In this document: positions 5,834 through 48,999 of the stretch, in pieces
How the letters are laid out: the number at the start of each line of letters is the position of its first letter
Numbering within the stretch: position 1 is the first letter of the stretch
Assembly: GCA_902728285.1 (NCBI GenBank)
Contig: CACVBU010000359.1
Span: 2,518,386-2,582,385, forward strand
DNA from: Clytia hemisphaerica
Lineage: Eukaryota > Cnidaria > Hydrozoa > Leptothecata > Clytiidae
Reading direction: 5' to 3'
Length of the DNA: 64,000 nt
The notes under the pieces: model-generated
The model's input: the letters and a program-made list of their open reading frames with translations, nothing else
Told to the model about the DNA's origin: nothing
Databases searched by the model: none
Program-made: the position numbers and the translations under genes

Positions 5834-5868
5834 TTCTCCAATTCCAATTGGTCGTACCGAATCGTCCT

Positions 5869-17406: not shown

Positions 17407-18690
17407 AATGTTGACATTCGATTGAGGGAAAAACATTTGCACAAGTTTGAGTAAGATACCTTAAAATTTTACTTGTATTTATGATGATGGATTAATTAGA
17501 GTTACACGTAAATAGAGACTTATACGCATACGTAATTAGCCGTTTTTAAACCACACGCATTTAATTCCTGTGATAAACAAAGAGGGATGAATCTGTAGGG
17601 GTGATACAGTCACTTTCGGTCGGGACTGTGATATGAAATTTGTTGAATTTGTCGTTCTTAAGAAATTTGTCGTTCTTTTTAGATGGTCTGGAAACATTAT
17701 AGATTAATAGTCTCGTTATAAAACTTTTTTATTTATTTTTTGAATTGTGTATGTTATGTGAATTTAATCTAAGATTTTTCGAAATAATTGGTCTTTAACC
17801 AATTATCATTTTTGCTATTTTTAAACAGTCTGAGAAGCCAAAGCAAATTATAGCAGAAGAAAAATTGACATATATAGCTCTTTTTAAAATAGGTTTAATA
17901 ATTTTGTGTGTACTTTGAAAATTTATTGTAAAATTTAAAATATTAAACCAGTTGATTTTATGAAAATAATATAGTTGGTCAGTAAATTGTAAACAAACAT
18001 CACTGTATCTATTTTTAATGCATTCTTCTCCTCCAATCAGCTTCCACATTGTGACGTCATATAGATTTAACTAGTACCCAGTGACGACATAATTATAGTG
18101 TTAATGACTTTGAAAATAGGTTTTTTTAGCTAATTACCAACATATATCATATGCCTCCATGTGGTTTTTTGAATGACTTCCGTATTTGCGCAACCGCATT
18201 AAAACCGTTATCTTTCCTTATAAGGTTTTAATGGATTATAAATCATGCTGATAACGTTTTAGAAAATTGGACACCTTTCTGTCAAACTCGGGATATCAAC
18301 AATTAATTTTCTTTTCTATATATAACAATAGGGTAGGGCTTGACAAGAAGTTATAGTTTATTAGTGGTATCGGAAGAACCTATCGATTCAAGTTGATTGA
18401 ACTTAAAAAAATAGTTTCAGCCTTTAATCGATCATCTATTTATCAGTTAGGACCATTGAGTTTGAAATCACGAAGTAGCCGAAGGGAGTAGAAAGGAATC
18501 TTCAAACTTTTTCAAACAAGAAAAAGTGAAGCCTTAAGTTAAGTATATATAATATATATATGTAATGTCGCCTGACTGTCTTAAATGATAGTCAGCCTGT
18601 CCCAAGCCAGGATAAAGACAGAGGGACCCAGAGAGGACTAATTACCCTTTCATTGTAACATCGTCTCTCTAAGAGGAAAAAGAATTCGGC
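17407..18690. other. 3' flank and gene-free DNA
   Basis: Contains a dispersed repeat (17508-17695, separate entry). The rest shows only short frames and A+T-rich sequence. No clear AATAAA close to the stop of the preceding gene. Confidence 0.4.
17508..17695. mobile_element. Dispersed repeat, copy 1 (inverted copy at 38988-39225)
   Basis: Shares CGTAAATAGAGACT..., CACTTTCGGTCG, several TTTGTCGTTCTT motifs and the end GGTCTGGAAAC with the second copy in opposite orientation. The TTTGTCGTTCTT motif is repeated inside each copy. Ends GTTTCCAG/CTGGAAAC are visible in copy 2. Confidence 0.65.
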
Positions 18691-18696
18691 CACTCT

Positions 18697-19863
18697 TTGT
18701 TGTTTGTAGTTCTGACAGGAGAAAACATTTTATTTTTTCATACTATATATATCCCCATTATGTATTGGATTCCTAAAATGCATAAGAATCCTATTGGTTG
18801 CCGCTTCATCATTGCTTCCAAATCATGTAGTACCAAACCGCTGTCTCGTGCTGTATCCATGGTCTTCAAAGTTCTATACAAACATGTTGAGCAATTCCAT
18901 CATAAATCTCGTTTCTTTTCTAGTTTCAATAAGTTCTGGGTTGTACAAAATTCTTCGCCTGTTATTGGACATCTTAACAGAATCAATGCTAAGAAAAAAG
19001 CAAAACGAATTTCGACATTCGATTTTGCAACACTGTACACAACCCTTCCACACGATCTTCTCATTGAAATTTTAACCAAAATTATTAACTTTGTGTTTGA
19101 TTTAGGTTGTAGAAATAAACTTGGTTTTTCAAATACTTCAGCATACTGGACTACAAAAGGGAAGGATGATAGGTTCTTTACTAGTACTTCACTGTCTGAG
19201 TGTGTGTCCTTTCTGATAAAAAATTGCTTTTTCAAAGTTGGCAATTCTATTCTTAAACAGTGCATTGGAATTCCCATGGGAATAGATCCTGCTCCTTTTT
19301 GGGCAAATTTGTTTTTGTACCATTTTGAATCTGAGTATGTCAAAGGTCTCATTTCTGCTAGTTCGCCTAGTGCCTATAACTTCCACTCTGTAGGTAGATT
19401 TATTGATGATTTGTGTGCCTTAAATGACAGAGATGAGTTTCATAATTGCTACAAACAGATTTACCCTAAAGAACTAGATCTCAAAGTTGAGCACCATGGA
19501 AACCATGCATCGTTTTTAGATTTAGATATCACCGTTGAAAACAATATTTTTAGATATAAACTTTTTGATAAGAGAGATGCCTTTCCCTTCTTCATTGTAA
19601 GGATGCCACATGCCGACAGTAACATCCCATCGTGCATTTTTTATGGATCCGTCTTTTCAGAAATTTTACGGATAGCACGTAGCACACTCATGTTTGAAGA
19701 TCTGACTCCTAGAGTCACTGAGCTTTTCATTCGAATGCGAAACCAGGGTGCTTCAAACGCTTTCTTGAAGAAGCAAGTTGTCAAATGTTTTTCCAGGTTT
19801 CCTGACTGTTTTATGAAGTATGGGAAAACCGTCGAAGAATTTTTACATATTTTCAAATTGTGA
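18697..19863 (+). pseudogene. Penelope-like reverse transcriptase fragment
   Basis: The open frame carries YWIPKMHKNPIGCRFI (finger region with the PKxHK signature of Penelope-like RTs), STFDFATLYTTLP (first catalytic Asp), GIPMGIDPAPFWANLFLY, and RFIDDL in place of YxDD. FLDLDITV and the DKRDAFPF segment follow. The recognisable part starts about 25 residues into the frame, and no GIY-YIG or other nuclease is seen on either side, so it is a 5'-truncated copy or an endonuclease-lacking subfamily. The frame ends cleanly at ...FLHIFKL, as in relatives I remember, so the RT core itself is uninterrupted. Family placement is by memory; an unclassified RT group is the alternative. Confidence 0.8.
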
Positions 19864-23770: not shown

Positions 23771-24535
23771 TTACTCGTCATTATCGTATTCTGTGTACAA
23801 ATTATTTGGTGCCAAGTGCCATTCATGTTCATTCAATTCCCCAGACTTGAATCCAGTTGCAACAAATTCATTTTGATCCCAACCCATCTCTTTTTGAAGT
23901 TTCACTGAATCTTGACTCTTATCAACCGCGTAGAAACATCTTGGAGCCGCTCGTACTTTACTGGCTTGAAATCTGCCTAGAAATTCAGGACAATTTTCGG
24001 CACCAAGGAGTTTCATAATGGGACCAATGATTTTTTGACCCATTTTATGAGGAAGAAGACGAGAGCATGGAACTCTGAAGTCACCTTCAGCAAGTTTGGG
24101 AATCATCAGATAAAGGTGAATGATATATTTTCTTTGAAGTTGATCGAATTTCACATGAGTGATATAAGCCAAACCTTTTTCATTGCCTTTCTCGATCAAT
24201 TTCTTTCGGTTATTGAGATAGAGAACTTCCAAGAAATTTTTTTGTTGGAAAGCTCTGGAAAGAGGAGCAGAAACACTTTCAGCTTTGAATCGATCAAACT
24301 TTTCAGCCTTACTTTCCCATCGAAATTTGTACCAATTAGGTGAACTCAAAATACAGATTTCAGAATGGCTTTTACGTTTACGGCGCTGCATCAACGGGCA
24401 GTCGTAACCAGAGTCACACTCAAAAGGCATCCATTTTGGACCATCGTTACGCGTGTAGATACGTTGGGCCGGCTCCGCATCCGCGCTAACGTAAACGGCT
24501 AGTGATAACAGTAATAATAGTCTTTGATGTAACAT
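23771..24535 (-). CDS. Secreted six-cysteine protein of unknown family
   Basis: 254 residues in one coding exon. Residues 1-18 are a strong signal peptide (Leu-rich, ending ...YVSA). Six cysteines at about 40, 46, 61, 157, 182 and 200 could form three disulfides. A very basic run, MQRRKRKS (about 49-56), could be a cleavage site between an N-terminal piece with CDSGYDC and the rest. The C-terminus is acidic (YTEYDNDE). The ATG lies nine bases after an acceptor (TTTTAG at 24545-24550), so an untranslated first exon is expected and a good candidate ends at 26080. I do not recognise the family; extracellular location is inferred from the signal peptide. Confidence 0.78.
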   Translation of the reverse strand: MLHQRLLLLLSLAVYVSADAEPAQRIYTRNDGPKWMPFECDSGYDCPLMQRRKRKSHSEICILSSPNWYKFRWESKAEKFDRFKAESVSAPLSRAFQQKNFLEVLYLNNRKKLIEKGNEKGLAYITHVKFDQLQRKYIIHLYLMIPKLAEGDFRVPCSRLLPHKMGQKIIGPIMKLLGAENCPEFLGRFQASKVRAAPRCFYAVDKSQDSVKLQKEMGWDQNEFVATGFKSGELNEHEWHLAPNNLYTEYDNDE

Positions 24536-24930
24536 CTCTCTCGTCTAAAATATAGAAAAAAAGATTATTCGATACAACCAGCAACATCAAGACAAAATGT
24601 CTGAAATAAATTTGATAAAAGCAACGATCAGCAAAACTTAAATTCAGTATTTTTGAAATTGTGAAATCTGAGAAAATAGAATCTAAATATATCCTGTGGT
24701 TAAAACTCACTGCTAGGATGTCCGGTAGTGAATAAAAATTTAAGTCACATGTGCAGAAAGATAGAAAGTAACTCAATTGATACCCCGCAGTGCAATAACC
24801 GCTAAATCTTATTTTTAGAGGAAATCACTGCCAATTTAGATCTTGATAATCTCCCAACGACCCCTGTGACATTTTACATAACGATACTTTTGTGACATTT
24901 ATTAAGGGAGGTCATTCATTTAAAGCTTGC

Positions 24931-28959: not shown

Positions 28960-31900
28960 TTAGTACATTTCCAATCGGATCTTTCGAACCCAGGCTTTTG
29001 CCGGGTTATACCAATTATCACCAAGATAATACTTCACGTTGTGGAAGATCCTGGGAAAGTGATTGACCTTGATGTAAACTTGTTTTCCATTAAGCATAAT
29101 TGAATAATAGTATTTCTTGTCATGTGGGTTTTGGATTTGCTGTACAACTAATTGTGATGGATAGTTCAATGGTAATTGGGGGCTGTTATAACACCAATTA
29201 GCCACGTGATCGATGCCAGTGCAAACATGCAGTTTATTGGTATTTGAGTGGAACCAAATCCCAGGGATTCTATAAAAACAAAGATAAAAAATCAGCTTAG
29301 AAGAAAAGTTTCTTGTCCGTAGAAAAACCCTTCGTGGTCCTTTTGTGTTTTAACCACAACCCCCTTAATTTTAGGAGTCAAAATCTTGGCTAAACCCCGG
29401 TATCTCGAAAATTGGAAACAAAATAACACTTTTACACCGGGTTGTAGAGATTAAAAAACCGGAACACTGACAAAATATAAAGCTAGCCACCGTCACCGTT
29501 TGATTTTAAATACCGTTTTCCCGACTCTTTTCGTCCAATCCCGTAATACCGTACTAAAAAAGGACTAACCCCGTCACATCGTAAAAGTACAAACCCCCCT
29601 TTACTGAGGAATATGATTTATACCTTGAATACGTCCCTCTCTTATTCAATTAGATTTTTAAACAGAGTTCTTCCTGTTTTGAGTTTGCTTATACAGTTGA
29701 TTCTCGCTTATTCGAACTTCTATTATTCGAACTTCTATTATTCGAATCCTTCTATAATTCGAACTAATTCTCAGGCCCCGTCAAAGGTATGCGTTCCCCA
29801 TGACTTAATTCATGAAAAGATCTATTAAAACTAAAAAGGAGATAATGAAGCTACCTGTCACCAACGCGTGCACCATCTCGACCAATTGTTGCATGGAAAA
29901 TATTCGACCATCCATGAACTTTGCCGGTAGGTCGGATTTCCATTGCGAGCGACCAGCCTCTTTTTAATATTGGGACAGTACGGATGAGTCTGTTTCTTCG
30001 GACTGTACTGTAACCTGGAGGTAGTGAAAAAAACATGACAATCACATGTCAATACAAATGTTTTTGTAGTGTCTTATGTCTAATCTACCGTTGTCTCCGA
30101 GCGGATTCTGATACTTCGCGCATGGCATGTATTCACTCTAAAAGCGATGGCTCTGTAAGAGAATTTGCCCAGGTTGGTGTACCGCTTTGATCTTTTTCAT
30201 CCAGTTTTGGGATGAATATTGAATGTGCTTTCAAGCAGTCATTGGCTAAAACAAAACAATCGCACCAAAATCAAGTGCTAATCATAAACATTAGAACCAA
30301 GTCTTTCTTTAGATTACGCTTTCGTTTTAAAGCAAAAAGACAACGCAGTTTGGATTGTTTTGGCTAATCAGCCAGATCAAATCGTTACACTCGCCGTATC
30401 GTTTTAGAGCAGAGCGTGGTATGCGCAAAATTCGGGATTTAATTTTATCATTTTCTCCACAAGATTTACAATATATGTTTTGAAATAAAATTCTTCTTTT
30501 CACTCAGTTGGGAAGTGGCAGAGGGAACAGGCAACCACCCTAATAGCAGCAGTCAAATTTTGGGAAGCTTCAATAGGTAGTGCTTTCCTTTAAAATCTCA
30601 CGATAAAAGATTTTAACCAAAGAAAGATAAATTATTGAACAATTTTTGAATGAGCGCAAAATTGTAAAGTCAGTTATTTATAAATTATAATCTATTTAAA
30701 TCAAAAAATGGTGTTCTTACCCAAATTGTGAGGATGCATTTCCAGTTTAACATTTTTAATCATGGCATTAGCGTTTTTGTGCCAATTATCGCTACCGTAA
30801 TATTTGACGTTGGTGAATACCCTGGGATCGGTGTTGACCACGTTACGAATCAAAACACCATCCACAAAGACTTGATAGTAATATTTGAAATCTTTTGGAC
30901 TCTGAACATTTTGAATAACTACAAGTGTGTCTTTATTGATCGGTAGTGATTTACTCCTGGTGCAATAATCTTTATTACCAGAAACAGCGGAACAAATGTG
31001 GAGGTCGGTAGTTCCGGACCAAAACCATAAAGCGGGCACACGATCACCATATGCAGAATTATCACTTCCAATGCTTGCGTGAAAGATATTACACCATCCA
31101 CTGCACTTTCCTATAGGATAGATAGAATAAAAGCAGACATTTGTACGTTAAAACATACTCTCATACCTAATAGCCAGGGAGTTAAAATTAGCGGGGTGAG
31201 GGGGCTGAAAAAATCTCAAAACTTAATAAGCGGGGCGGGGTTAGAATAAAAGCGTCCTGGGTGGAAAATTTTTGAAAAGGAGGCTAATTCAATAGAATAA
31301 GGGCAAAAGAGGAAACTTTTAAAAATATTTTCCCAAAAATTGATAAACGGTGGGGGGGGGGTTAGAATAAAAATATCCTGGGTGGAAAATTTTCGAAAAA
31401 TTAATTAGGTAACCGGGAGTAGTCATGCTAAAAGAATTTTGCTAAGGACAACTTAGACTACACTCTTAGGATTGACAATTAGTCACATGATCAAAACTCT
31501 ATGCCAAACAAATCCCGCTACGTGCGAAAGCTCTTCTTATTAACAATAGAAAAGAAACCAAAAATCGTGATTGTCTAAAGTAAAAGCTTGTTCTACTACA
31601 TTGTTTCCTCATATATAACCCAATACCAGGTTTGTGCATATTTTTGGTACTATACACAATACAAAATACTTTTACATTTAGTACCAAGCAGCATCCCAGC
31701 TGGCACACAGTGTTGTTTCAATATTCATCTAACGTTCTATGGACGTTGTGATCTAAACGTTGTGTGCCAGCTGGGATACTATTAACTTTTGTTATGCGCA
31801 GATATGTAATTTTTGCGCAGATATGTAATTTTTGCGCAGATATGTAATTATTTTGCGCAGATATGTAATTTCTGCGCAAATATGTAATTATTTTGCGCAA

Positions 31901-34900
31901 CTATGTAATTTCGAGCTGCGCAGATATGTAATTATATTTCTGCGCAGATATGTAAAACACGACCTTTTGGACTTAGTTATTTTTTGAAAAACTGACTCGA
32001 TTTTAACATAAATTTTTCTAATACAAGAAGTAATATCTTGGACTTTGTTCTTGGACTATGCCAAAGATTTGGCAATTGTTGTTTTTATTATAAGCATCAT
32101 CTTTATAAGAAACAAGTCAATATCTTTTTATCAAAGTGATATTGGCTTTCGGCGATTGGTTCTATCAAAGCAACTAGGGGACTGTGCTAAATGAGAAAAA
32201 TTTTGTTTTTCTTATAAGCATCTACTTTATAAGAACACAATTCATAACGCTTAAACCAATGATTATTAGCTTTCGGCGTTTGGTTCTTTCAAAGCAAATA
32301 TAGGATTGTGCTTAAGCTAGAAACATTTATTTTTCTTATAAGCATCAACTTTATAAGAAAACAATTCATAACTTCTAAACCAATGATTATTAGCTTTCGG
32401 CGTTTGGTTCTTTCAAAGCAAATATAGGATTGTGCTTAAGCTAGAAACATTTATTTTTCTTATAAGCATCAACTTTATAAGAAAACAATTCATAACTTCT
32501 AAACCAATGATTATTAGCTTTTGGCATTTGGTTCTTTCAAAGTAAATATAGGATTGTGCTTAAGCTAGAAAATTTTATTTTTCTTACAAGCATCAACTTT
32601 ATAAGAACACAATTCATAACTTCTAAACCAATGATTATTAGCTTTCGGCGTTTGGTTCTTTCAAAGCAAATATTGGATTGTGCTTAAGCTAGAAACATTT
32701 GTTTTTCTTATGAGCATCAACTTTATAAGAACACAATTCATAACTTCTAAACCAATGATTATTAGCTTTCGGCGTTTGGTTCTTTCAAAGCAAATATTGG
32801 ATTGTGCTTAAGCTAGAAATATTTATTTTTCTTATGAGCATCAACTTTATAAGAACACAATTCATAACTTCTAAACCAATGATTATTAGCTTTCGGCGTT
32901 TGGTTCTTTCAAAGTAAATATAGGATTGTGCTTAAGCTAGAAAATGTTAGTTTTCTTATAAGCATCAACTTTATAAGAACACAATTCATAACTCTTAAAC
33001 ACTATTTGTTAGCTTTTGTTTGATAAATCAAATCTCTGAAAGCCTATTCCACTTAGAAAAATATCCTTGTTCTTATAAAATTCTTATAAACTAATGTTAG
33101 ATTTAGGAAAATTGCCTATTTCTTTCGATAGAGCCGTTGCAGAATGCCAATTCCACTTAGAAAAAAATTTAAATTTGTCTCCTTTTAGATGGCTTAAAGT
33201 CGCATATTTTGCCTTAGTTTAATTTGTAAGGGGAAAATAAGAAAGACTTGTAATTTTTTTTAATATCTTTAACAATCAGTGTCAAATTGTCCTGAATGAC
33301 ATTCTTCAGAATTTAAGTTCGAGCGAGAATCATACCTTCAATAATCCCACTCTATTTCATTGGATAATCCAATCAAATATAATGACTTTGCTCGTAGATG
33401 GAACCATGAAAAGGAAAAGGGAGTTTTTATCATGAATTATTCCATGCGTTGGTAAAGACAACCAATAGAATTTTACTTTATCTCACTGTAATGCGTAAAG
33501 AAATGCAATCCATATCTACAAAATCAATAAAGTTTACATAGGTGCGACTATCTCGAGTCGAGGTTCTATCGAAGATCTCAGTATAGGTATTGTACTTTTT
33601 TATTAGGTTGTACCGATAAGATAAATAGAAAATCCGAATCTAGAGCTTACCTTGCTATAGATGGGTTCACTTTTTTTTTAAGAATTTGGATACTCTTATT
33701 TTTTTGAGGTTTCAGCCTAAAGATATTCTTAACATGTTGTCCCTTGTTAACTTTGTAAAAACTACCGTATTTCTTCGAATAAACGTCCTGGGCCTCTTTT
33801 TTATTTTAAGACTTTCAGGAGGGGTGTTTATTCGAGGGGTGTTAAAGAAAGGGGTGTTAATTGAAAAATTTAAAACCTCCTATTGAGGGGAGTCTTTTCC
33901 CTCAGAGAAGGAGCGTGTATTCGAAGGAATACGGTAATTACCGAAAGGTATATAATATGCTACAAAGAGTTATTTGATTCTCATAAAGCTGATGCTTATA
34001 AGAAAAATAAATATAGTCATATTATGCGTCATCCCTTGTTTACTTGCAAAAACTAATAAACGAAAGATATATTACCCTCTATCAAGAGTTATTGCTTTGA
34101 TTCTTGTAAAGTAGTTGCTTATAAGAAAAATAATTATTTTCATTTTAGGTGCTATTCCATGTTTACTTTGAAAGAACCAATCACCGAAAGCTAAAACTTA
34201 GTGGTTGAAAAGTTATAGATCATTTTCTTATAAAGATGATGCTTATAAGAAAAATAATTTTTTCCATTTTAGGCGCTATTCTATGTTTGCTTTGAAAGAA
34301 CCAATCACCGAAAGCTAAAACTTAGTGGTTGAAAAGTTATAGATCATTTTCTTATAAAGATGATGCTTATAAGAAAAATAATTACTTTCATTTTAGGCGC
34401 TATTCTATGTTTGCTTTGAAAGAACCAATCACCGAAAGTTAAAACTTAGTGGTTGAAAAGTTATAGATCATTTTCTTATAAAGATGAATATAAGAAAAAT
34501 AATTTTTTCCATTTTAGGCGCTATTCCATGTTAGCTTTGAAAGAACCAATCACCGAAAGTTAAAACTTATTCGTTGAAAAGTTATAGATTATTTTCTTAT
34601 AAAGGTGATGCTTATAAGAAAAATAATTTTTTCAATTTTAGGGGCTATTCCATGTTAGCTTTGAAAGAACCAATCACCGAAAGTTAAAACTTATTCGTTG
34701 AAAAGTTATAGATTATTTTCTTATAAAGATGATGCTTATAAGAAAAATAATTTTTTCAATTTTAAGCGCTATTCCATGTTAGCTTTGAAAGAACCAATCA
34801 CAGAAAGTTAAAACTTATTCGTTGAAAAGTTATAGATCAGTTTCTTATAACGATGATTCTTATAATAGTAGATGCTCATAATAAGATATTACTACTTGTA

Positions 34901-37900
34901 TTTGATAGAAATTAGCTAAAATACCTAAGTCCAAAAAAGGTAAAAGTAATGGTAAAAGCTATCAATGGGGTACCATTGATTTTATAGATCGTGTTTTACA
35001 TATCTGCGCAGAAATTTAATTACATATCTGCGCAGCTCGAAATTACATAGTTGCGCAAAATAATTACATATTTGCGCAAAAATTACATATCTGCGCAAAA
35101 TAATTACATAATTGCGCAGAAATTACATATCTGCGCAAAAATTACATATCTGCGCACAACAACTTTTTCTAATTCCAACTACCATGCTCCAATCTGCAGT
35201 TTGAGCTTAAAATATCAAAAAGTAGAATGTTATTTTGGATCTTATTCTTTAATCTGAAGAAGATTTCTCGGCTCAGAGGGACAAACATGTATATACATAC
35301 CTAATGGCCTGATTTGTAAGGATAGAGTCCATCCTCGATTCAAGGTCGGTTTAGTGAATAACAATGTATTCCTCTTGACTGGGCTAAATCCTGGAAGGGA
35401 ATGGAGAAAAAACTTATTTCCTTTGAAAAAAAATCACGAAAAATAGAATTGGAACAAAGCACGTCAGTAGCAAACTCTCAAATATAATACTGATTGTGCA
35501 TGATTTCGTGTACGAATTAAACAGAACGACGAAAGTAATTTTTGAATCCACTCGCAGAATTAATAAGGGCTAAAGATTTACTTATATTTTGTTTATTTCT
35601 ACAATTCTACAAATTAGATTTCGATTTAACTTTGATGGGATGTTTACAAATCGCATGTATTTCAAAGGCCTAAGAGAAAACCTAATTAAAGATGCGTGGG
35701 TTCTTAGAGCAGGACCTCCATAAAATGCTAAGAGCACTATCAAACAATCGGCCCGGGGGAGTTTGGCAGATTGACCGACGGGTATGTGTGGCGGTAAAGG
35801 TTTTGTTTTTCAAGAAAGTATAAATGAGTGGAAATTTCAGTAAATCAAGGAAAAATTGCAAATTTTAAAGCCAACTTTCTCCCCGCAAATACCATCAGTT
35901 GGTAAACCCACTGCCCCAGAGAAAAACGGGCGCGATTCAGGAGAGATGGATCTAACTATAACGAACCTTGGTTATGCGGAAACATTTCCAAATTGATGTT
36001 TCTCAAATGTGCATTTGAAGGTTCATACCATAGGTCACCAACAAAATATTTCACATTGTTAAAGACAGCTGGTTGGTTATTGACTATATCCAAGATCTTG
36101 CTACTGTCCACGAAGATTTGATAATAATATTTCAAATCGACTTTCTGGATTTGCTGAACAGTAATTTGTGTGTATTGGCTCAAAGGTAGTTGACCAGTTT
36201 TCACACACCTGTTTGAATTCCCGTTGACTGCCGAACAAATCCAAAGTGCGTGCTGAGTGCTGTGGTGAAACCAAATTCCTTAAGAATAGAAAACAAGAAG
36301 AGCTATAAAAAGAACCAGTTGTAAAATTTCATGTAAACTTTTGGAACACAAAAAAACATGGATTAATGCTACTCAAACAAGACTGAGTCAAAAATTGTTT
36401 TCTATGGGAGGATTGGGACTGGGGTCCAGGCTTTTGTGTTTAAGGGATTGGGGGGCTCAACCGAATTATTTCAGGTTGAAGCCTAAAAGTAGTTGAGCCC
36501 AACTGGAAATCAAGGCAATCAATCACACCTCTTGGTTGGAAAATTAACCCGCTACTTTAGAGCATTAGCGTGGGCGGCCGCCAATCCACCATCAGAATAT
36601 CAGATAACGTGGTTTCCTAGTTTTCCAGTCTGAAAGCGTTTTTTTTTTCTTTCTATTGTTTCTAACCTGCATTGGAGAATTAGTTGTTTTGCTTACTTTT
36701 TGATCATGTGATTCAATTTTGAACCAATGGATAACGTTTTCATAAACCGAACAAATCAATATTTTGTTATCGACAAAGTAAAAAAAGCTAACAAAAAGTC
36801 ACATTAGGCTTGCTGTCCAAGGTTTTATGCAGATTATGTTTGTACTAAAAATAAGCATGTAAGTACCAGGTATACGGTCTCCATATTTGCCATGGTCTCC
36901 ACCGATGGTTCCATGAAGAACACTTCTCCATCCTGGCAAAACACTGATGGGTTTGATTTCAAATGTTAGCGAGTATCCACGTAATAAAGTTGATCGAGTC
37001 ATAAACTCGCGATTCTTCTTAATTGTAATGTGATCTGAAAATGGAGGTAAGTGGGTAAGTAAGTACACTAAAGCCCCTTCTCACAGACCCGGTAGGACTT
37101 TTTTTCAGCCTGCGGGGCTAAAAATGGATTTAAACTCAATGGAGATTGATACCGGGAGTATTTTTATGGCTGGTGATTTAAATTCTTTGTTTTTTTGTCA
37201 GAAAATGGGAAAATAGCGTAATATTTTGCACTGAGGATTGGAGGATAATTTTCCACTGGGGACCATATTCTAGCCTATTTTTCCAGTGGAAAGAGTTCCC
37301 AGTGATTCTGTGAGATAGGGAGTGTTAGAATACAAATGACCTTATCCTATTCTGCAGAGTGGCTATTCTGAAAGACTGAGGTTATAGTTACACAAAGAAA
37401 AAGTCTTTAAAGCTCGCTATCTATCAATTGACAAAAATTAGTGTCAACATCAGGTCATCCATCTGATTTGATATCGAAATCTATAATATCTTCGGGCATT
37501 AAACGTGATCTAAATTTACAATGCCAGTTACGCTGAAGGCAATGAAATAATTCTTACTTTTAGGGACAGTAGGATTTGTATTTTTAGGAACACAATATTT
37601 CAAGGCTCCACCAAGATTAAGATTTGGTATAGACGGCCCATCGAATAATTTGAAGACTGCTTTGAGTGGATTGTCTTGAATGGGGTTCGGAATTTTGGCT
37701 AATTGTGCAGCCATTTCTGAGCAACCGTTTCTTGCCTAAATGTAAGAAAACATCGATAATACTTTAAACTTTTTAATTTTATAAAGAACGCCTGTATAAG
37801 TGTATGTCAATGACTGTCATCAATTAGGATATTTACTCCACCTATGAATAAACCTACGAATAAACCTACGAATGAACCTATGAATAAACCTATGAATAAA

Positions 37901-40900
37901 CCTACGAATAAACCTACGAATAAACCTATGAATAAACCTACGAATAAACAAGTTCTTCAATAAATATTACCAAGATCGAACAAATTTGTGTTCTCAATTT
38001 CACCATTATATTTCATATCTGTTCATATTCGTATTTTGGCGCGATTTCCTAAGAAACTGGATGTTTTAGAATCCAAGAAGCCTTAGAATGCTCTTATAGG
38101 ATTAAAGCTGTTCGTAATATTGGCTATCGCAGTATGTTCTTAGACGATTTGCTCTTATAAAAACATGTACAACAGAAAAATTCTTACATATTGGCAAACA
38201 TCAGCTTTACTGGAGATACATTTCAAGACAGTAGTAGCAGGGTTCATCATGCATAGATTGTCAACCATTCCAGTGCAGCCTGCTTCAAAGTTGTCTGCAA
38301 CACTGGTTAATGCTTGGATGTCTGGAACCACACCCAAATTGAAAGCTGTCTTCAAGCTTAATCCTCCTGAAGAAGTAGAAATAAATAGAAATTGTTCGGA
38401 TTCATTATATTCATTGCGTAATGTTTTAGACGGAAATCCCAAAAAAATCTACGGGCGTTTGCAACTGGTTTTAATGTTTAAATTCAAAATTAGTGACAAA
38501 ACCTGGTCTTGTTCGGGTGCTTCCGTGTAAATCATTACTCTAAGATTATCACGAATTCCAAAAGAAATTTAGGGAAAAAATCTAAACCACGCCTATCTAA
38601 CCCGTGAAGTCAAAAATCTTCAAATTTGAAGTTTTACTTTATGTTTCCTTTATTAAAATCTATATTGATTTACATAAAAGATGTATCAAAGAAATACAAG
38701 GGAGAAATGAACAACTTTTACGAGGCTCTCACCTTCGACACATTGGCTTCCTAAGTTAGCTTTCAATTTTGCGTTTCCTTGTAATTTCACTTCGAAGTTT
38801 GGGAAAGTTTTGAACGGGATACCATTAATCTTGAAAACGATTTCAACTCCAATTTGGAATGTGGCTGATGGAAAATAAGGTTAAATATAAAGCTAAAAAC
38901 AGTCTCTTCGTGGCTATAGGTACTCGTGCTGGCCCACATGATGTAGTAAAACTACAACGCTAGTATTAGGAGACTGTTTAAATCTAACGTTTCCAGATCA
39001 TCTAAAAAGAACGACAAATGACTATTAAAAAGCGACAAAAAGAACGACAAATTTTTAAAGAACGACAAATTTCATATTCGCCGTCCACAACCTCGACCGA
39101 AAGTGACTGTACCACCCCTAGAGATTCATTCCTCTTTGATTGTCACGGGAATTAACTGCATGTGGTTGAAAAGAACGGCAAATTACGCATGCGTATTAGT
39201 CTCTATTTGGGTGAGCTGGAAACATGAACTAACTCTTAGCTTGTTCATAATTACATTTCCTAGATGACCATTCAAGGAACTAAATCCTTAAGAACAAATA
39301 ATCTGAGCAGATGGACGATTGGAAGCGAATTACATCCGGTAGTTATAATACTCTTGGGCCGAGTTAGCGATTGTATCAAACCTAACTTAAACACCCCCTT
39401 CTCAGATACCCAATGGGAACCCTCTCCACTGAAAAAAATTCGCCAAAATATCATTCCCGGTTGAAAATTATCCTCTAATTTTTGTCCCCACTGAAAAAAA
39501 AAATCAAATAAACCGATCCTCACGGCAAAATATTTATTTTCCCCATCCCCTCAGAAATTTCTGACTTAAAAACAAAATAATTGAAATCTCCATTCATTAA
39601 GAATGTTAAAATATCAATCCCTATAGTGTTTCAGTCCATATTTCTATCCCCACTGGCTGAAAAAATTCTACCGAGTTTGTGAGAAGGGGGTGTACTTAAT
39701 GGATTTTTTGTTGGAAACTTGAAAATAAAAATGTTCATCCAACCTGTAACTTGTGCTGTCGCATCGAGACTAAGAATTGGTTTCAATTTCAAATTATTGA
39801 GATTCTGTGACGCCCTGGCAAATACTCGGGGTCGACCAGTCGATGGATCATATTCGATCGTTAAATGATCTAAAGCTAACTTGGCAGCTTCTTGTAATGT
39901 CAAGGCTGCTGTAAATGTTCCACTTGCTTGAGCATTTAGCTTAAATTCAGCAACTGGTTGAGCCTGGAAGAATATGCCGATGAACAAAGAACGTTACGTT
40001 ATATGAGAGCAGTTTATAAAAACGCGAAAATGTCAAAGCAAAATGAGAATAATATTAGCCTCGAAATATAAAGAAATCAATTACGTCTGACGTTTAAGTT
40101 TGATTTCCAGTTGGATGTACGATTAAAAGTGGATAATTTCAGTTTCAACCAAAAAATAACCCACAACTCTACATAACTCAGTATATGACGATCGAAGCTT
40201 TGAATACCGTAGAATATCTATCCTTAGGGAAGTTACACCCAATTACTCCGATAGAAATAAAAAGGAATATACATTCAAAAATATTTCTAAGATTTTTGGG
40301 AATTTCACCCGAAGGTGAAAAAAAGTTAAAAACACGTGCTTACAGTGACTTCAATGATGACAGGCACTGGAACATTTCCAATGACAATTGTAATGATCTT
40401 TTTGAAAATTCGGACTGGTCGTTTTATCAAATCAATACGCTTCTTGTAATTTTTTTTGTAGTTCCTGAGAAAGAGAATTTGCATGGATTGTTGGTTTTTC
40501 GGATTACTTTGCTCTGATTTTGCAACAAAATCATGTGAATGAATTCGGTTTCGATGGGGGCTTTAATCATTGACGATATGTGACTTGCTGTTGAAATTTG
40601 ACGTAACATGACAGTCCTAACTAAGAGGTGATTCTCTCGGCAAACTAAAATAAAACGCCGTTTTTCATTAATTCTTTTCCATGTTTCTTTAAAGACTAGC
40701 TGACGTGCCATTTCCATTGCCAGTGTAAAAGTTTGGCGACTTTAATGCGAGGTTTCAACGCGAATATTGAATCTCTCAAACAAGAGTAGCAAAGAAGCAA
40801 AATATTGTACTTACTTATTTAACTTGAGTTCAATCTTTGGCATGAGATCAATACCTCCATAAAATTTGATTTGAATCTTTCCAGTATTGAAGTAAGCTTT

Positions 40901-43900
40901 GAAGCCAAATCCGACATGTGCGTTCGACACACCGCTAACGGTTACCGCTCCTGTAAAACAGAAAGTAAAGATTAGTTAGATGGCATGATTAGATATAGCA
41001 CAAAACATCAACAACGTCAAAGTAACGTCTAAAATAACGTCAGAATATCGAGTTTACTTTAGTCGGGTAATTCGGGAGATTCAAATTCGGAAGTCAAAAA
41101 TCGTGAAATTTTCTGGATTTGTTTTCGCGTTTTGAAAAAAACTTCGCATCCGGGTGTATTTAGTCCCGCGGGTCATGGTTTCATGCAAGGCAAAAAATCC
41201 CGAGAAACGTAAGAATTTAAGATTACAAAAATCATCCCATTGAAACTTTACAAGCTTCCACGAAGCTTTAAGTTTTGAAACATACCTAGAAAAAAGGCGG
41301 CTAATAATTAATTACTACCTCACGAAGTATTCACAATTTATCTCAAAATAAAGCAATAAAGAAAAAAAAATTCAGTCTTGTTCAAGTAAATACAAAATCC
41401 GACATACCATATTTCTTAGAGTATGTTTGTCTTCGATCAAATCGTAAACATGTAGATGAAGGGCCACCAAAAGCGATATGGCACGTCTCCTTTTGTTTAC
41501 ACGAAGCAGCACTGTTGATAAGATCTCTTGTACAGCCACTGATTAAGCTGCTAATTTGTGGGAAAGCACAATTCAAGAAGGTGAAGGTATCTTTAGCATA
41601 TCTTCCCATCTGATTGGCTACACCTTTCCAATCTAAATTAAATAAGTATATTTGATATGAAAAGTAAGGTTAAACAAAGCTTGTAACTTAAGCCCGACAA
41701 GTCAGCAGTTAAAGTGGTTGCAAGTTAGTATACTAAGTTAGAGTTAAAAGTTGTATATCAGGAGGCAGGAGGGAATATTATAGGATGAACATCTAAAATA
41801 GAACCAAAAGGTGCCGAGCGTTAAAAATTTTGAATTGTGTGCAATTCTTTTCCATATTTTTTATTAAGTCGACCTAGTATCTACAGTAGTGGAATGCTTT
41901 TTTGAAGAAATTTAGACGCGTTATTCATGATATTCATCATTGCAATGTCTTCTGCCATTACGTCATGGACCTATTAGCTGATTAGTTGTAATTGACGTAA
42001 AATCACCCATACGTCACTTACAACCAATCAGCTGTTGGGTCCGTGGAAGACATTACAATGGTGTATATCATGAATTCCAACAACTTACCAACTTTCTTGA
42101 ACTCTTTGTCAACGGTCCTTATTACTTTTTTCACATGTTTAAATTTGCCAACTGCTACTTTCGCTCCTTTCGATACAACACGAATTCCTTTATTAAAAAT
42201 TCCGGTCGGGTTTGGGAATCCTGGAATGTTTGGTACACCTGGCAGTCTTGGTGGTGGGATGCTTGGGATAGGTGGAATACCAGGAATGTGTGGAATCCGT
42301 GGGATTCTTGGAATCGGAATTCTTGGAATTCTTGGTACTGGAATTCTTGGAATTCTTGGTGCAGGAATTCTTGGAATTCTTGGTGCTGGAATTCTTGGTG
42401 CAGGAATTCTTGGAGCAGGAATTCTTGGGGCAGGAATTCTTGGTGCAGGAATTCTTGGAGCAGGGATTCTTGGGAGTGGTATTCGGATGCGCGGTGCCGG
42501 AATGCGTGGTGCCGGAATGCGTGGTGGCGGGATTCGAACTCCAGGAATGAATAACGGGTCTGATTGTTCATCTGTAAAGAACCATAAATGTAGAATAAGA
42601 AAAATTAAAAATGTTGTGGTCTTAACTAAGACAGTCAGGCAAGGTCTAAAAATGAAGAGATTTTAAAGATTTTTACGTTGATCTTTATGCATGTAGTATT
42701 TTTATAATTCATGCGTTCACTTTAAGAATGAGAAGATCCAGCGTGTTCTATTCTGTTTCGGATATGAAAATAGCAAAATGCTGAAATGAAAATCTCCTGA
42801 GCTGCTTTATATGAGAATCGAAGTTGGGAAGAGAAAAATTTCTTGGGGAAACCAGATAATGTCTGAGAGTCCTGTAGTAACTGTTAGCAAAATAAGACAG
42901 ATCAGTGATATTTTACCTTCAAAAATTACTTCATCATCCAAATCATCTTCGTCGTTTTCATCTTCTTCGTCTTCTTCATCCTCGTCTTCTGTATTTCTAT
43001 TTTCTTCTTGTGGGACGCCTATTTTCCTACTCCCTTGTTGTGCATCTTTGTGTTGAGGCGCCACTTCCGTCAAATCTTTTAAGTCTTCATCTTCTTCATT
43101 TTCTACGTCATCCCCGTCTTCTGTATTTTCATTTTCTCCTTGTGGGACGTCACCGGGTATTTCATAATTACCGACTACACCACCGGGTATTTCATTACTC
43201 CCTTGTTGTGCATCATGGTGTTGAGTCGCCACTTCCGTCAGATCTCTCAAGGGTTCATCTTCGACATCAGAGTACAATTCTTCATTCTCTTCTTCGCCTA
43301 CAAGAAATTTCGAAACAAAATCTAGTTATCACGAGATTGCGAACATTTTAGAAAAAAGCTATTCAATATTTGGATGAGCATCAAAAGTTTTGTTTGAATC
43401 GAAAAAACTGGCCTTAGAGGAAAAGATTTTTTTAAGTTTTGGGCCTACGTGGAGTGCGAAATTCATTCCCTAGCCTCTTTTTAGAAAATTAAAAAAAACG
43501 TTTAATCAAGGAGAAAGAGCATGTGTGAAGGATTTTTGAGTTTTTGAGGCTACCCATAAGTAGGAGGAAAATTCTTAACTTCCAAACAGCTGGCTCTTCT
43601 GCTCTGAGATTTAAAAATTATGCTACTTGGTTGTAAATGAACACAAACAAGACAGGTTGCATCTTACTAAATTATAGATAAATCAAAGACCACATTTAAG
43701 AAATTAACCCTGATTGACGTTACGTGGGTTATATACGCAGTCAGTCCCACAGATCCACAGACGGTTCTTGATTGAAGTTCGGAGTGAACCAAACAATTAC
43801 AATGAGGAGCTGGTTTATTGCTTAAAATTGCTTTAAGTCAAATACCTTCTTTATCATTGTCAACAAGAGCTTCTTCATCCTCCTCCTCGTCATCAACTTT

Positions 43901-46900
43901 ATTGAGTTGAATAGGAGTCAATTCATATTTTTCGTCTAGCTGCTCTTCCTCGTCTTTGGAACCTGGGAATCAAATTTGGTGCCATAATGTTTACAGAAAG
44001 GTTATAAGAGAACTCAAAAAACATGGAAGCTGGCAGGGAGTGTTCAAATTAAAATACTCAGATCAAAAGCAGAAACAAGAAGAAGGTCGTTTCCGACCCA
44101 AAAAAGCCACGCAAACGCATATCGGTCTATTCTTTAGACTAGTAAACCACGTCGTTGTATTTCGCTGCAGATTAAACTTTCAATGGGATCTATTTTTTTT
44201 AAATGTTTTCTGAATACAACGACTAGTTCCAAGAGGCGCTTTTTACTAAATAAACGGTGGAGTGCTCTTTATACCGCGGCGGAGTGCTCACTTAAAACAG
44301 CGCACTCACTCTCACGGATTAGAATAAAAAAGTAAACAAAACTCAGTACTTTTTATGCTTTAACCCTATTAGCCCCAGGGGGGGTAGAATCTACCACGCC
44401 GGATTTCTTTTGTTTATATCTCGGAGAAAAATTTTTTAAACGACTTGAAACTTTTTGACTTTTAATAAAATCTTATTAAGAGTACTTGTGCAAAAGTTTA
44501 GGGTCATAGGTTGTCCAGATCAGGTTTTATGACTTTATTGTGAAACATGACATAAAACCCAGCTAAAATCGCTTAAAACTCAAGATTTAAAGTGCTGATA
44601 ACTTCTAAACTATTTATTCAATCATTTTCAAATTTTGACACGTGATAGGCATTGATAATACAAATTTAAAAAATTAAAAGAAACTTTTTGAAAATGATGA
44701 TGTCATCATTTATGACGTCATCAAATTTTGAAAATTTTACTCATCTTCAGCATAGATTTTAAGAAAAACTCTTCATGGAAATTGCAAAACCGGCAATTAT
44801 GTTAAAGAACAGTCTTTTACCTTTCAGAATCTTTAAACAGAATTGAAATCTCTTTATTGTTTCGACTGTAATAGATTTTTTTGTAAACCATATGTTTGGG
44901 CTTTTTTCCTACAGGTGGAAATTTTGTAATGACGTCATCAGTTTTCGAATGACGTCATCAAATTTTTTTTTCTTCCTGGAAAATTGTATCATCATGGAGA
45001 GCATCTGTACCAAATTTCATGGCCATAGCTCTTCTAGATCAAAAATAATCGAGGGTGGTAGATTCTACCCCCCCCTGGGGATACAAAAGTCAAAAAAGCT
45101 TGGGGCTAATAGGGTTAAAAGCCTTTATTATTATTTATTTATTTTTTTTAAATGAGACTTTTCTTGAAAAACTAAGATTCACTCGAATTAAAACAAACTC
45201 ACATCCTGATTATTTTTTTATTTTAATGTATTATAAAAGAAGGTGAGTACAATGGAATATCAGTCAATTTAGGGTTGTTTTTTTTTGAAAAAATTGAAAG
45301 TTCTTTCTTCCAACAACAAGACACAAGGAGTTATTCACAAAAAGTATGATATTTTTGTCTGAATAAAAAGAATATGAACTGGACTGTACCTATCAGCTAT
45401 AGGTACCCCAAAACAAAAATATTCATATAAGGGGAAAAATCTTTTTCAAAAGAAAACGACATCAAAAATATAAAATATCAGGCCACTGCAGGCATAAGAA
45501 AACTTTCTTTTTGTGGAAGCTAAAAAGAAAAATACTTTCAAAAAAGCAAGAGCTTTTACAAAACATAAAATTATATGTATTTGTTCATATTAACCTCTAA
45601 TTTTGCTATAAAAATTATAAATATATTACCTACAACATAAAATTACCAAGTAGATATTTTTTTTAATTGGCAAATTGGCAAAAATCCAATCAAAATTTTC
45701 ATAAATTTTGTAAGTATATAAACAGTAAGTTTTGAAAGACTTTAACAGTAGGTATAAATTTCAATCTGAACTTGTTCAACAACACCAGGGGACAACAAAA
45801 AATAGACCTTTTTTCAAAGAGGACGTCCTGTTGAATAATTATGTAGTCCAGCCATAAAAACAATGATAGAGCCATGCATAATTACTGTATCATGCATATT
45901 GTAATAATTATGCATGGTTTTATCATTGTTTTTCTGCTGGACTACATAATTATTCAACAGGGTGGCCTCTTTGAAAAAAGGTCTATTACAAGGTAGAGGT
46001 CTGCCTGGGGGGAGGGGGCACTGCCCTTGACGACCAACAGGGACGTGCCGCGCCTGGAGTTTGAAAAGTGGACCCTGTGAGATATGAATGTTTGGTAAAT
46101 TTGGGACCCTTTCAGAAAGATAAATGATGCGGTCGAAAAAAATCGGTAAAGTGGCAAAAATGACTTAAAGTAGAAGAAAAATTCATATATTTTCTAATTT
46201 CCACCCTAAAAATTGTCTAAAATGACCAAAAATCGACCCAGTCAGGTCTACTATCTTGAAAATTAGTACAAATTTGGGACCATATCTCTAGAGTCTGAAA
46301 AAGGGACCCTGATCAGGGGCATGTCCCCGTACTTAATTCAGGGGCCGCAGCAGCGGGGGGCCACCCGGGCCTTGGCCCAACCACATTTTTTCAAAGCAAA
46401 AAGAAAATTTACTGATTCAGCTAAATTCTGCGTAAAAACCTTTAAAAAGACCTGTTTTAGGCAATCTAGAATGGCTAATTTTCAAAAATTTCTCCCCTCG
46501 GCGCCAACCATGGTGGCACCTTAGACACTAAACCGTGGCCCTACCATTTTCAAATTGGAGCCGCGACCCCTGTAATTTTGTTGCCTAAGTGCCCCCCTGA
46601 AAGTCTGCCAGTAGTGAAAACTCAAAACATCCTCGTACATCTAACATTTAGAGTCAAGGTGAAATCCAGTTAAACGACAGACATCCGAAAACACAGAAAA
46701 CCAGTCATCTCAATGTAAAATGTTGTTAATTTCATTCACAAATAGAACCAAGATGTGTCTCAGTGGTCAGCTTGTCAGAAAATTGTTTCCGTATAAAAAG
46801 CATTCAATTTTTAAATTCCAAATTATCACTTTTCATCATTTCGACACCATATATTTATTGCACCACCAAAAATGTTGTATAAATACCATACTTTTCATCT

Positions 46901-48999
46901 TAATTTTTGAGGATTTCTGTAGCCATTCCAAAGTTACATTCTCTGGGATAAGGTTATCAAGTTCAACTTGTACTATAGAAAAAAGCATTGGTCTGTTACC
47001 CAATGAATGTGAGCATATTAACGTGAACATTCCCTGCAAAAAGTATATCCTGCATGCAGTCATAGTCATGGAATCTGTGTTCAGCTGTGTTATAGTGTCA
47101 TAATAAATATTGCACTTGTACTATAGATTTACCAACGTACCAAGCCAACAAAATTTCAAAGATCCCAGTGTTAAAAGATGTCATGAATGTTTATAACCAT
47201 ACATAATCAAAAAATCTTTCAATCACAACAATCACATGAAAAAGTGAAAGTATAATCCATATTATGAGTTTGTTTGTTTTTTGAATATATCAACGTCCCA
47301 ACCAAGCCAAAAACAATGTATGAATAAAGTATCTCAGATAGAGAATGCCAAGACAGGTTAAATCTGTGTTTATAAACATTAAAGCATTAAAAAACTTCTC
47401 TTCTCAGTTTAGCAAAAAAGTTGGAGAAGTCCTCGCCACGTTTTTCTGTTTTTGTGTTTATAATTTTTTTCTCATCCATAACTCCGAGAAACTCAAATAT
47501 TGCGCTGAGAATAGAAGAAAAAATAAGCCGTGTCCATTCATTTTATCTTCCCTCTTTTTCGAGGGAACGTTGCCTGAGATTAGATTGAAGCAAAATCCCG
47601 TATTGCACCACTTGGAACTAGTCTGTCTTTCCAATCCACTCTCCCGCGGCAATTTCTATTTTTTATAAGAACTCTTTATTATAAGCACTATTCCCGCGTT
47701 CCTGTGTCCAAGGAAAGACAGACGCTTGCTAGTCTATCTATTCTTACATTATATACAACAAGAACCGCTGAAAAAATTGGCTTTTATAAAGCCCAAATCC
47801 CGTAGATTCATGATATTCAAGACATAATATTTCATATGAAATCATCTAAACTTGTTGGTGCGTTTGTCACTTGCTTTAACTAATTCAACTGGTAAAGATT
47901 CGGTCTTTTTCGGATGTTTCCGTATAAAACATTACGCCATAGATATCATGAATAGAAGAACATTGTCTGATGTGAATATGATTAATTGATATGTAAATAT
48001 CTGAATTACCTGGTCCAGTAACTACAATATTCTCAATAGTTTCATCTTCTTCATCGTCCGCATCTGCTGACTCATCATTCAAAAGCAAAGGAGAATCTTT
48101 GCCGTCCAAAGGTGCAATCTCGTCATTCACTTTGAAGTTGACTTCACCTGCAGTTAAAACGTTACATGTTTTTTATAAGAACAAACTATGTAAGAACAAG
48201 GCTTCGGTGGCCAAATTACCAAAGAACAGATTAAGAATCTCTTATAGACTTGGCGGACTCTAAAACACCCGATTTCTTAAGAAAGTAATCACAAAATAAA
48301 ATTTTTGGTAAAATTAAAATTTTAAGAACATTCTTAGGCTTCAACCCGAACTGAATATTCCATAACTAATTTTCGATGTTCTTATAAAAACGTGTACGAA
48401 AAGCGCTAATTACTTTTAAAATGTAACTGCAGATATTTTTGATCCGTATTTTCTTATAGTCACTCTGCATTTTTCTTATAAAAACGTTTCATAGCTTACC
48501 GTTAGAAAAAAAAATTTTCGTATCATAATTCTATTAGAGTCAAACTGAGGTATTATTGGTTTAAGAGTATCTATTATTACTAAAATTTGAACCCTAATTT
48601 GCCTAAAACTTATCCATTTTAGACTCGATTTAACCAATAATTTGCCTATAATTAGTCAATGTCAAGCTAAGCATTGTTCTAATAAAAAATAATGATTAAT
48701 CAACGAATTAATCATCAATTTGATCCGAAACGGTTTCTTTCTCGACAATATTTTACTTATCTAATACCCTTCTGGGAATACTTTTATCAATCTCACAGAC
48801 CCGGTAGGATCCATGTCTCATTGGAAAATTTGGCCGAAATTTCATCCAAGGTGAGAAAATTATCCCAGCCCGCTTTGGATAAAACTTCTTTCGGGACACA
48901 AGAACAGAGGTGGTCTAAGTAAATAAGGAAATAATAAGAAGATAGCTTACCTGTCACTAGAGCACAGCATGCCAGAAGGCAAAGAAGAAGTATCTGCAT
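28960..48999 (-). CDS. Large modular secreted protein: acidic repeats, Pro/Arg repeat, three ConA-like repeats
   Basis: Rebuilt from 18 coding exons on - (high to low): 48999-48951, 48147-48010, 43962-43846, 43297-42917, 42571-42089, 41632-41408, 40950-40815, 40464-40344, 39963-39744, 38864-38733, 38366-38188, 37735-37558, 37034-36867, 36278-35967, 35390-35301, 31110-30721, 30014-29855, 29269-28960. Every junction has GT/AG ends and matching phase (mostly phase 1), giving 1262 residues with no internal stop. Order: signal peptide 1-16; acidic Asp/Glu-rich 17-228; Pro/Arg repeat 229-353 and a basic tail to 389; beta-rich core with cysteines 390-786; three ~155-residue concanavalin A-like repeats 787-946, 947-1106 and 1107-1262. 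Such repeats occur in cnidarian extracellular and skeletal-matrix proteins. A secreted structural, adhesive or matrix role is inferred. The ATG exon has an acceptor at 49011, so a 5' untranslated exon exists (candidate ending at 50096). Confidence 0.9.
29600..29790. repeat. TTATTCGAACTTC direct repeats in an intron
   Basis: CTTATTCGAACTTC, then two more ATTATTCGAA copies, between 29705 and 29765. This resembles the terminal part of pogo/Tigger-type elements. Only one end is visible. Confidence 0.45.
31694..31776. mobile_element. MITE, CCCAGCTGG family copy 2
   Basis: TCCCAGCTGGCACACA and TGTGTGCCAGCTGGGA close an 83-bp palindrome. It sits 18 bp left of the foldback element. Confidence 0.8.
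31795..35157. mobile_element. Foldback-type element with tandem-repeat arms
   Basis: The outer 160 bp on each side (31795-31955, 34997-35157) hold about eight short units built on GCGCAGATATGTAATT, inverted between sides. Next come about eight units of roughly 124 bp on each arm (about 32085-33010 and 33970-34880). The right units are the reverse complement of the left ones. A spacer of about 960 bp, holding a nested MITE, separates the arms and has no long open frame. Such arms are typical of Foldback/Galileo-like elements. It lies in a 4.2 kb intron of the large secreted gene. No clean target duplication was found. Confidence 0.85.
33763..33936. mobile_element. MITE nested in the foldback spacer
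   Basis: ACCGTATTTCTTCGAATAAACG on the left is matched inverted by CGTGTATTCGAAGGAATACGGT on the right, flanked by TA. Inner GGGGTGTTTATTCGAGGGGTG-like sequence repeats the theme. Confidence 0.75.
37068..37332. mobile_element. TIR element, family D copy
   Basis: CCCCTTCTCACAGACCCGGT at the left, with inverted TCTGTGAGATAGGG at the right. Family members at 39390-39693, 48793 (partial), 56984-57167 and 62934-63207. Internal CCCACTGAAAAA or CCACTGGAAA-type sequence is characteristic. Confidence 0.6.
37841..37949. repeat. 12-bp tandem repeat, about nine copies
   Basis: Units of AACCTACGAATA or AACCTATGAATA. It lies inside an intron of the gene on -. The + strand is open and would read Asn-Lys-Pro-Thr/Met repeats, but nothing supports translation. 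Confidence 0.85.
38988..39225. mobile_element. Dispersed repeat, copy 2 (inverted relative to 17508-17695)
   Basis: Starts GTTTCCAG and ends CTGGAAAC. Carries AAAGAACGACAAAT three times and CGACCGAAAGTGACTGTA, matching copy 1. Confidence 0.65.
39390..39693. mobile_element. TIR element, family D copy
   Basis: ACACCCCCTTCTCAGATACC at the left and GTTTGTGAGAAGGGGGTGT at the right form the ends. It lies in an intron of the large gene. Confidence 0.7.
41931..42077. mobile_element. Palindromic MITE 10 bp inside a splice donor (family E copy 1)
   Basis: Arms CATTGCAATGTCTTC and GAAGACATTACAATG within longer matches, ending near TCATGAATT. The element ends 10 bp downstream of the donor of the Pro/Arg-repeat exon. 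A second copy lies at 52914-53062. Confidence 0.8.
42089..42571 (-). other. Pro/Arg-rich pentapeptide-repeat exon
   Basis: In the spliced frame this reads as many tandem RIPAP units, then RIPRIPxP units, then IPPIPSIPPP and a basic Lys/Val tail. A 15-bp DNA unit underlies it. Because the unit is a multiple of three and stop-free, several frames on both strands stay open; the antisense Gly/Ile/Leu frame is a shadow. Only the RIPAP frame joins its neighbours in phase 1 on both sides. Confidence 0.88.
44360..45118. mobile_element. piggyBac-like non-autonomous element
   Basis: TTAA at both borders, with ends CCCTATTAGCCCCAGG and TTGGGGCTAATAGGG. Just inside, GGGGGGTAGAATCTACCAC is matched by GTGGTAGATTCTACCCCCC. 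TTAA duplications with CCC...GGG ends are the piggyBac signature. Internal ATGACGTCATCA motifs recur. No transposase. It lies in the 4 kb second intron of the large gene. Confidence 0.85.
45804..45985. mobile_element. Palindromic MITE, family A copy 2
   Basis: Nearly identical to 1564-1752, including TA flanks and the AATAATTATGTAGTCCAGC arms. It differs by a few small indels in the centre. Confidence 0.85.
46005..46600. mobile_element. Probable TIR element with GGGACCCT motifs
   Basis: Near 46000 CTGGGGGGAGGGGGCACT is matched by AGTGCCCCCCTG near 46590, each next to TCTGCC (possible duplication). Internally GGGACCCTTTCAG and GGGACCCTGA resemble the element at 57266-57617. Confidence 0.5.
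48163..48399. mobile_element. MITE, family B copy 3
   Basis: TACATGTTTTTTATAAGAAC on the left, GTTCTTATAAAAACGTGTA on the right. In the first intron between coding exons of the large gene. Confidence 0.75.

Follow-up and report, generated by a model that had tools for sequence, protein, structure and literature searches.

An 18-exon gene for a predicted secreted protein with an acidic head, an orphan cysteine-rich core and Sweet Tooth tail domains, and its tail-swapped paralog

The window analyzed here, a stretch of 64,000 nucleotides (contig CACVBU010000359.1, positions 2,518,386 to 2,582,385), carries on its minus strand a gene that runs from an ATG at position 48999 to a stop codon at 28960 and encodes a protein of 1262 residues. 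In this protein, a known domain family appears in a new architecture: an acidic head is followed by an Arg/Pro/Ile stalk (RIPxP), a basic orphan core in which 12 cysteines are conserved and three Sweet Tooth (SWT) domains, likewise basic, and the same genome encodes a paralog in which another tail stands in place of the SWT domains. The overall architecture is well supported. Its function we infer; a matrix or adhesive role is plausible.

Results

Gene structure and a paralog with a different tail

The gene model comprises 18 exons (3789 nt) with a single stop codon (Table 1). It was obtained by a splice search based on dynamic programming that used generic weights for splice sites and took its codon table from the window; the chain had 17 exons at an intron penalty of 6, 23 at 4 and 28 at 2, the extra exons at 4 and 2 being weak. 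In the 17-exon chain, exon 9 overran at a weak donor and exon 13 was missed, and both boundaries were corrected by hand: exon 9 now ends at an in-phase donor (ACAG/GTTGGA; the slash marks the splice position), and exon 13 was set from its acceptor (TTTTCAG/AT), its donor (CCTG/GTACTT) and its likeness to SWT domains 2 and 3. The product of exon 13 contains RSTLLRGYSLTFEIKPI, the first part of the first SWT repeat that had been absent. With these two corrections, the splice search reproduced the 18 exons in matching phase and the 1262 residues of the original prediction. The N terminus has a hydrophobic stretch, MQILLLCLLACCALVTG, that by eye resembles a signal peptide, and the first poly(A)-like hexamer lies 351 bases past the stop codon. 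The best chain from any ATG scored 204 on the minus strand versus 11.7 on the plus strand of the region; control chains did not exceed 14.1 in 12 dinucleotide shuffles or 9.1 when two neighboring stretches were covered by four scans, a generous control because seven of the eight minus-strand segments used to train the codon table lie inside the gene, one in the wrong frame.

Phase matching by itself is weak proof of such a model; stronger proof, judged from the sequences, is a paralog. The genome from which the window comes (417 Mb, 951 contigs) was searched with the core (residues 390-786) as the query, and all 13 candidates matched: seven were exons of the window gene and six belonged to one other locus (C419:1238262-1241420; 51-69% identity), so that the search detected the core at two loci only. 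The 50 kb around this match show the same order, with a start that resembles a signal peptide (MKLLLFCLLLFVAASRG), one acidic exon, a RIPTP/RIPVP repeat exon and the core, past which follow two FAM3/ILEI domains; the paralogous gene extends over C419:1236485-1244461 (loci L043 and L044). A splice search with a codon table made without this locus gave 14 exons at penalties of 6 and 8 and 15 at 4. Exons 1 to 8 measure 49, 243, 423, 234, 136, 121, 220 and 132 nt, five of these lengths (49, 136, 121, 220 and 132 nt) are found in the window gene as well, and the phases are the same in both genes from the stalk exon through the 132-nt exon. The search overextended the ninth exon at its start, which was set by hand before the two genes were compared; one acceptor in the tail is weak. 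The genes differ in the acidic block, which is one exon in the paralog versus three in the window gene, and in exons 11 and 12 of the window gene, which form one exon in the paralog.

Identity to the paralog amounts to 61% of the aligned columns in the front parts and 61% in the core, where all 12 cysteines are kept. Over 388 core codons, the rate of nonsynonymous substitution (dN) was 0.34 and that of synonymous substitution (dS) was about 1.8, giving a ratio near 0.18; dS was saturated, and two of the seven exons gave an infinite value. By this ratio, derived from a saturated dS, the core is under purifying selection. Together, the agreement with the paralog and the purifying selection are strong evidence that the model is not an artefact in which unrelated open frames were joined. 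A non-functional relic, for which one could cite the repetitive element in intron 15, is hardly credible either: the frame is open across 18 exons, the ratio is near 0.18, with dS saturated, and no core cysteine has been lost.

Two modules in the tail of the paralog scored 54.9 and 61.2 bits against Pfam PF15711 (ILEI, FAM3 domain; cut-off, 27 bits), each match covering positions 1-89 of the 90 in the model; three exons of the paralog that were scanned singly against Pfam stayed below the cut-off or silent. The second module, the one searched against the PDB, matched FAM3A, FAM3C, FAM3B and, weakly, POMGnT1, and its Arg-Gly, Asp and aromatic-Arg align with FAM3A and FAM3C. ILEI domains gave 18 exon-level matches in the genome at an E value of ≤0.1, 12 of them above the cut-off, and two of the 18 are those of the paralog. 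In the window gene, Pfam scans of the N terminus, the core and SWT domains 2 and 3 at an E value of ≤1 found no ILEI domain and no other family. Since the same head-stalk-core unit bears a different tail in the paralog, it is the tail module that has been swapped. The likeness to FAM3/ILEI and to the stem of POMGnT1 is confined to the tail of the paralog, where the window gene has SWT domains instead, and FAM3 proteins are not known to have an acidic head, stalk or core. The domains of FAM3C, FAM3A and nematode Fam3L2 bind N-acetylglucosamine (GlcNAc) resin in vitro (PMC9802357).

Tail domains of the Hydra Sweet Tooth kind

The three tail repeats had been called concanavalin A (ConA)-like, which is upheld and can be made more precise: as judged from sequence profiles, they are SWT domains of the Hydra kind, the tail domain being what the protein shares with the SWT proteins of the Hydra cuticle. 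A profile of 23 paralogous domains and three window exons (alignment A1) was compared with Hydra peptides. Ten of the 22 distinct published Hydra SWT peptides fell on fitting positions of the domain at P < 0.01 (shuffling), as against none of 12 control PPOD peptides. The fold is taken from an AlphaFold model of a paralogous SWT domain that is 46-49% identical to the window exons. This model (predicted local distance difference test score [pLDDT], 93.6) is a laminin-G (LG)/ConA-like sandwich with structural matches to LG/ConA-like and pentraxin folds, so that a jelly-roll sandwich of the LG type is predicted. The likeness to laminin-G/LNS, pentraxin and ConA-like domains lies in the predicted fold, whereas the neurexin, agrin, SHBG and laminin chains among the structural matches share only 2 to 14% of their residues with it. 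No Pfam model reached its cut-off for the SWT domain (the nearest relevant one was Laminin_G_3, with 14.2 of 27.6 bits for one paralogous domain), and the SWT profile had no match among PDB sequences at an E value of ≤1.

A lectin- or pentraxin-like beta sandwich has been mentioned for SWT as an unpublished prediction (PMC3531485). According to the same paper, 22 Hydra proteins have two tandem SWT copies and some have more, and the SWT proteins were found in a study of the cuticle and left there without deeper analysis. As defined in that paper, they consist of SWT domains only; the window protein differs in that 786 residues lie ahead of the tail, of which residues 18-786 are other modules. 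In PMC12549020 and PMC4179610, the name Sweet Tooth comes up in the reference lists alone. Elsewhere in the genome (C240:655722-666350, loci L002-L008), SWT domains form a dense array, many of them in single open frames and with near-identical types alternating, a pattern that suggests recent duplication.

The core and its junction with the tail

The original prediction had described the core as unrecognised and, judging by its sequence, putatively beta-rich; that it is unrecognised holds within Pfam, NCBIfam, PHROGs, the PDB and the viral and prokaryote contigs searched. An overlong stretch gave nothing in Pfam at an E value of ≤1; for the corrected core, the best Pfam match was DUF1997, with 12.5 of 27 bits, which was below the cut-off and was taken as chance. 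NCBIfam and PHROGs gave zero matches, and the weak matches to PDB sequences (E value of 0.42 or worse) were likewise taken as chance. None of 75 pattern-matched stretches in viral contigs and none of 85 in prokaryote contigs was confirmed; distant relatives may have escaped these scans because each used two short peptide patterns. Among eukaryotes, the core search covered the genome of origin. A fold predicted from three rows for the cysteine-rich end of the core (pLDDT, 50.2) was too poor to be used. The core is a candidate new fold.

That head, stalk, core and tail belong to one secreted modular gene, as the original prediction had it, is borne out by the paralog for the first three; the junction of the core with the SWT tail is drawn from sequence, namely, from the splice phase, the 523-bp intron between exons 12 and 13 and the analogous core-to-ILEI order in the paralog. 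We regard it as very unlikely that two adjacent genes are present, one ending with the core and the other being an ordinary SWT array. SWT arrays without a core do exist (that on C240, read at length, is a run of SWT domains), and the search found the core at only two loci. However, exon 12 ends in a good donor and not in a stop codon, exon 13 follows it in matching phase, and the paralog also runs from core to tail domain in phase.

Charge segregation and lineage

The acidic head (residues 18-228) has 84 Asp and Glu versus 12 Lys and Arg among its 211 residues, a net charge of -72. The remainder of the mature chain carries +80, and the mature chain overall is near neutral (+8). In the paralog, the parts scored carry -41 and +65, and the acidic stretch has 45 Asp and Glu in 80 residues. 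An N-glycosylation motif was not present in any of the four stretches scanned (residues 18-228, 229-350, 390-786 and 787-1262).

The SAARP/CARP proteins of stony corals are secreted and have long acidic stretches; they share the Asp/Glu-rich stretch with the window protein and differ from it in tail, stalk and host lineage. The SAARP/CARP names appear in PMC7853314, which reports Asp/Glu-rich proteins in the skeletons of corals and red coral. Such proteins, and the density of acidic residues in both heads, would fit an acidic protein associated with mineral, comparable to the skeletal proteins of stony corals that are rich in aspartate, with a head that binds calcium and steers crystal growth, in a statolith or a hydrocoral skeleton, and tails that fix it to a matrix. 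We consider this unlikely, because the acidic part makes up only 211 of the 1245 mature residues in a chain that is near neutral, most medusozoans have, to our knowledge, no carbonate skeleton, and it is a medusozoan that the mitochondrial contig suggests.

This contig (C900, 14.6 kb) carries the sole COX1 match of the genome, with three in-frame TGA codons. Read in code 4, it has on one strand the order cox2, atp6, cox3, nad2, nad5, nad6, nad3, nad4L, nad1, nad4, cob, cox1, the open frames other than cox1 being recognised by eye and both contig ends being cut inside genes. Rfam placed the small rRNA on the gene strand, between nad5 and nad6, and the large rRNA on the opposite strand, at the far end; it also gave two tRNAs, one near cox3-nad2 and one near cox2-atp6. 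In the first 10 kb, no tRNA was reported by ARAGORN, although Rfam had placed one there that was cut at the edge of the piece. According to PMC4655093 and PMC3519871, a set of only two tRNA genes is a medusozoan trait and hydroidolinan hydrozoans lack polB and orf314; the gene blocks printed there for the siphonophore Physalia agree with those of C900. GFP, taken as a lineage marker, gave no match in a search whose control was silent as well. Judged by its genes, the contig suggests a medusozoan rather than a coral, and a comparison with coral and octocoral skeletons (PMC11959691, PMC7853314) was set aside because of it.

Table 1. Exons of the gene and an inserted element in the window
Feature	Positions	Strand	Content and basis
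Exon 1	48951..48999	-	ATG and likely signal peptide, residues 1-17; donor ACAG/GTAAGC; paralog exon 1 also 49 nt
Exon 2	48010..48147	-	Acidic block part 1, residues 17-63; splice search
Exon 3	43846..43962	-	Acidic block part 2, residues 63-102; splice search
Exon 4	42917..43297	-	Acidic block part 3, residues 102-229; splice search
Exon 5	42089..42571	-	RIPxP repeats (17 PRI motifs) and basic linker, residues 229-390; paralog stalk exon likewise 17 PRI
Exon 6	41408..41632	-	Core, 5 of 12 cysteines, residues 390-465; paralog exon 51% identical
Exon 7	40815..40950	-	Core, residues 465-510; paralog exon equal (136 nt)
Exon 8	40344..40464	-	Core, residues 510-550; paralog exon equal (121 nt)
Exon 9	39744..39963	-	Core, residues 551-624; 3' end (39744) set by hand; paralog exon equal (220 nt), unforced
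Exon 10	38733..38864	-	Core, residues 624-668; paralog exon equal (132 nt)
Exon 11	38188..38366	-	Core, cysteine-rich end, residues 668-727; fused with exon 12 in paralog (match 1241115-1241420)
Exon 12	37558..37735	-	Core end, residues 728-787; splice search and paralog match
Exon 13	36867..37034	-	SWT domain 1, first part, residues 787-843; set by hand
Exon 14	35967..36278	-	SWT domain 1, remainder, residues 843-947; splice search
Exon 15	35301..35390	-	SWT domain 2, first part, residues 947-977; splice search
Exon 16	30721..31110	-	SWT domain 2, remainder, residues 977-1107; splice search
Exon 17	29855..30014	-	SWT domain 3, first part, residues 1107-1160; splice search
Exon 18	28960..29269	-	SWT domain 3, remainder and stop, residues 1160-1262; splice search
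Probable inserted element	31789..35162	.	Intron 15; 177-bp inverted ends, 96% complementary; two internal 124-bp minisatellites, mutually inverted

The probable inserted element makes up most of the 4.2-kb intron 15. The window contains further open frames, three of which had no Pfam match at an E value of ≤0.1: a Ser/Thr-rich frame of 903 residues with repeated Cys-rich blocks (14695-17406, plus strand; 282 residues scanned), a frame of 254 residues with a hydrophobic start (23771-24544, minus strand) and a frame of 212 residues that has a Cys-rich end and basic sites resembling cleavage sites (10990-11628, plus strand). Two fragments, at 4820-5875 (minus strand) and 18673-19863 (plus strand), look by eye like reverse transcriptases, the second one of the Penelope type.

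Discussion

With moderate confidence, and from sequence features, we favor a secreted structural protein of the medusozoan outer coat, be it cuticle, glycocalyx or perisarc. In such a coat, the SWT tails would dock on anionic or amino-sugar glycans, and the acidic head could pair with calcium or with basic parts (stalk, core or tails) of neighboring molecules. Charge pairing of this kind would give an ionic network that is sensitive to salt, comparable to the part of the Hydra cuticle that salt extracts. The core would be a disulphide-held scaffold, and the two paralogs could place one scaffold on different glycans. The architecture and the charge pattern would also fit a secreted adhesive, mucus or perisarc glue whose segregated charges drive condensation at secretion and whose SWT tails hold surface sugars, and chitin-protein and glycosaminoglycans are reported from hydroid exoskeletons (PMC5316283); even so, we judge a glue of this kind rather improbable.

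Several points weigh against the assignment to the outer coat. Seven of the 22 Hydra SWT peptides miss P < 0.05, and those that fit are not independent, because several lie on the same site. The SWT domain alone is no proof of a role in a coat, since a Hydra receptor kinase carries SWT domains as well (PMC3531485). FAM3-like domains are not all sugar binders, the Fam3L1 domain having been negative on GlcNAc resin (PMC9802357). Finally, a scaffold role of the core is a guess, because the core has no known fold.

The claim that no named protein has this domain order stood in the literature searched and reaches no further: a search of titles and beginnings of abstracts, with cnidarian proteomes not covered, returned none. 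More tentatively than the coat assignment itself, the two genes may be the founding pair of an undescribed family of medusozoan coat proteins, in which an acidic head, a RIPxP stalk and a 12-cysteine orphan core are combined with sugar-binding tails that can replace one another, either three SWT domains or two FAM3 domains, in a near-neutral, charge-segregated chain that would assemble ionically into the outer coat. The SWT domain is now tied to a larger structural architecture, and the domain type gains a confident LG/ConA-like model. Moreover, with a pair of paralogs that differ in their tails, the idea that the tails may dock on glycans becomes directly testable by tail comparison.
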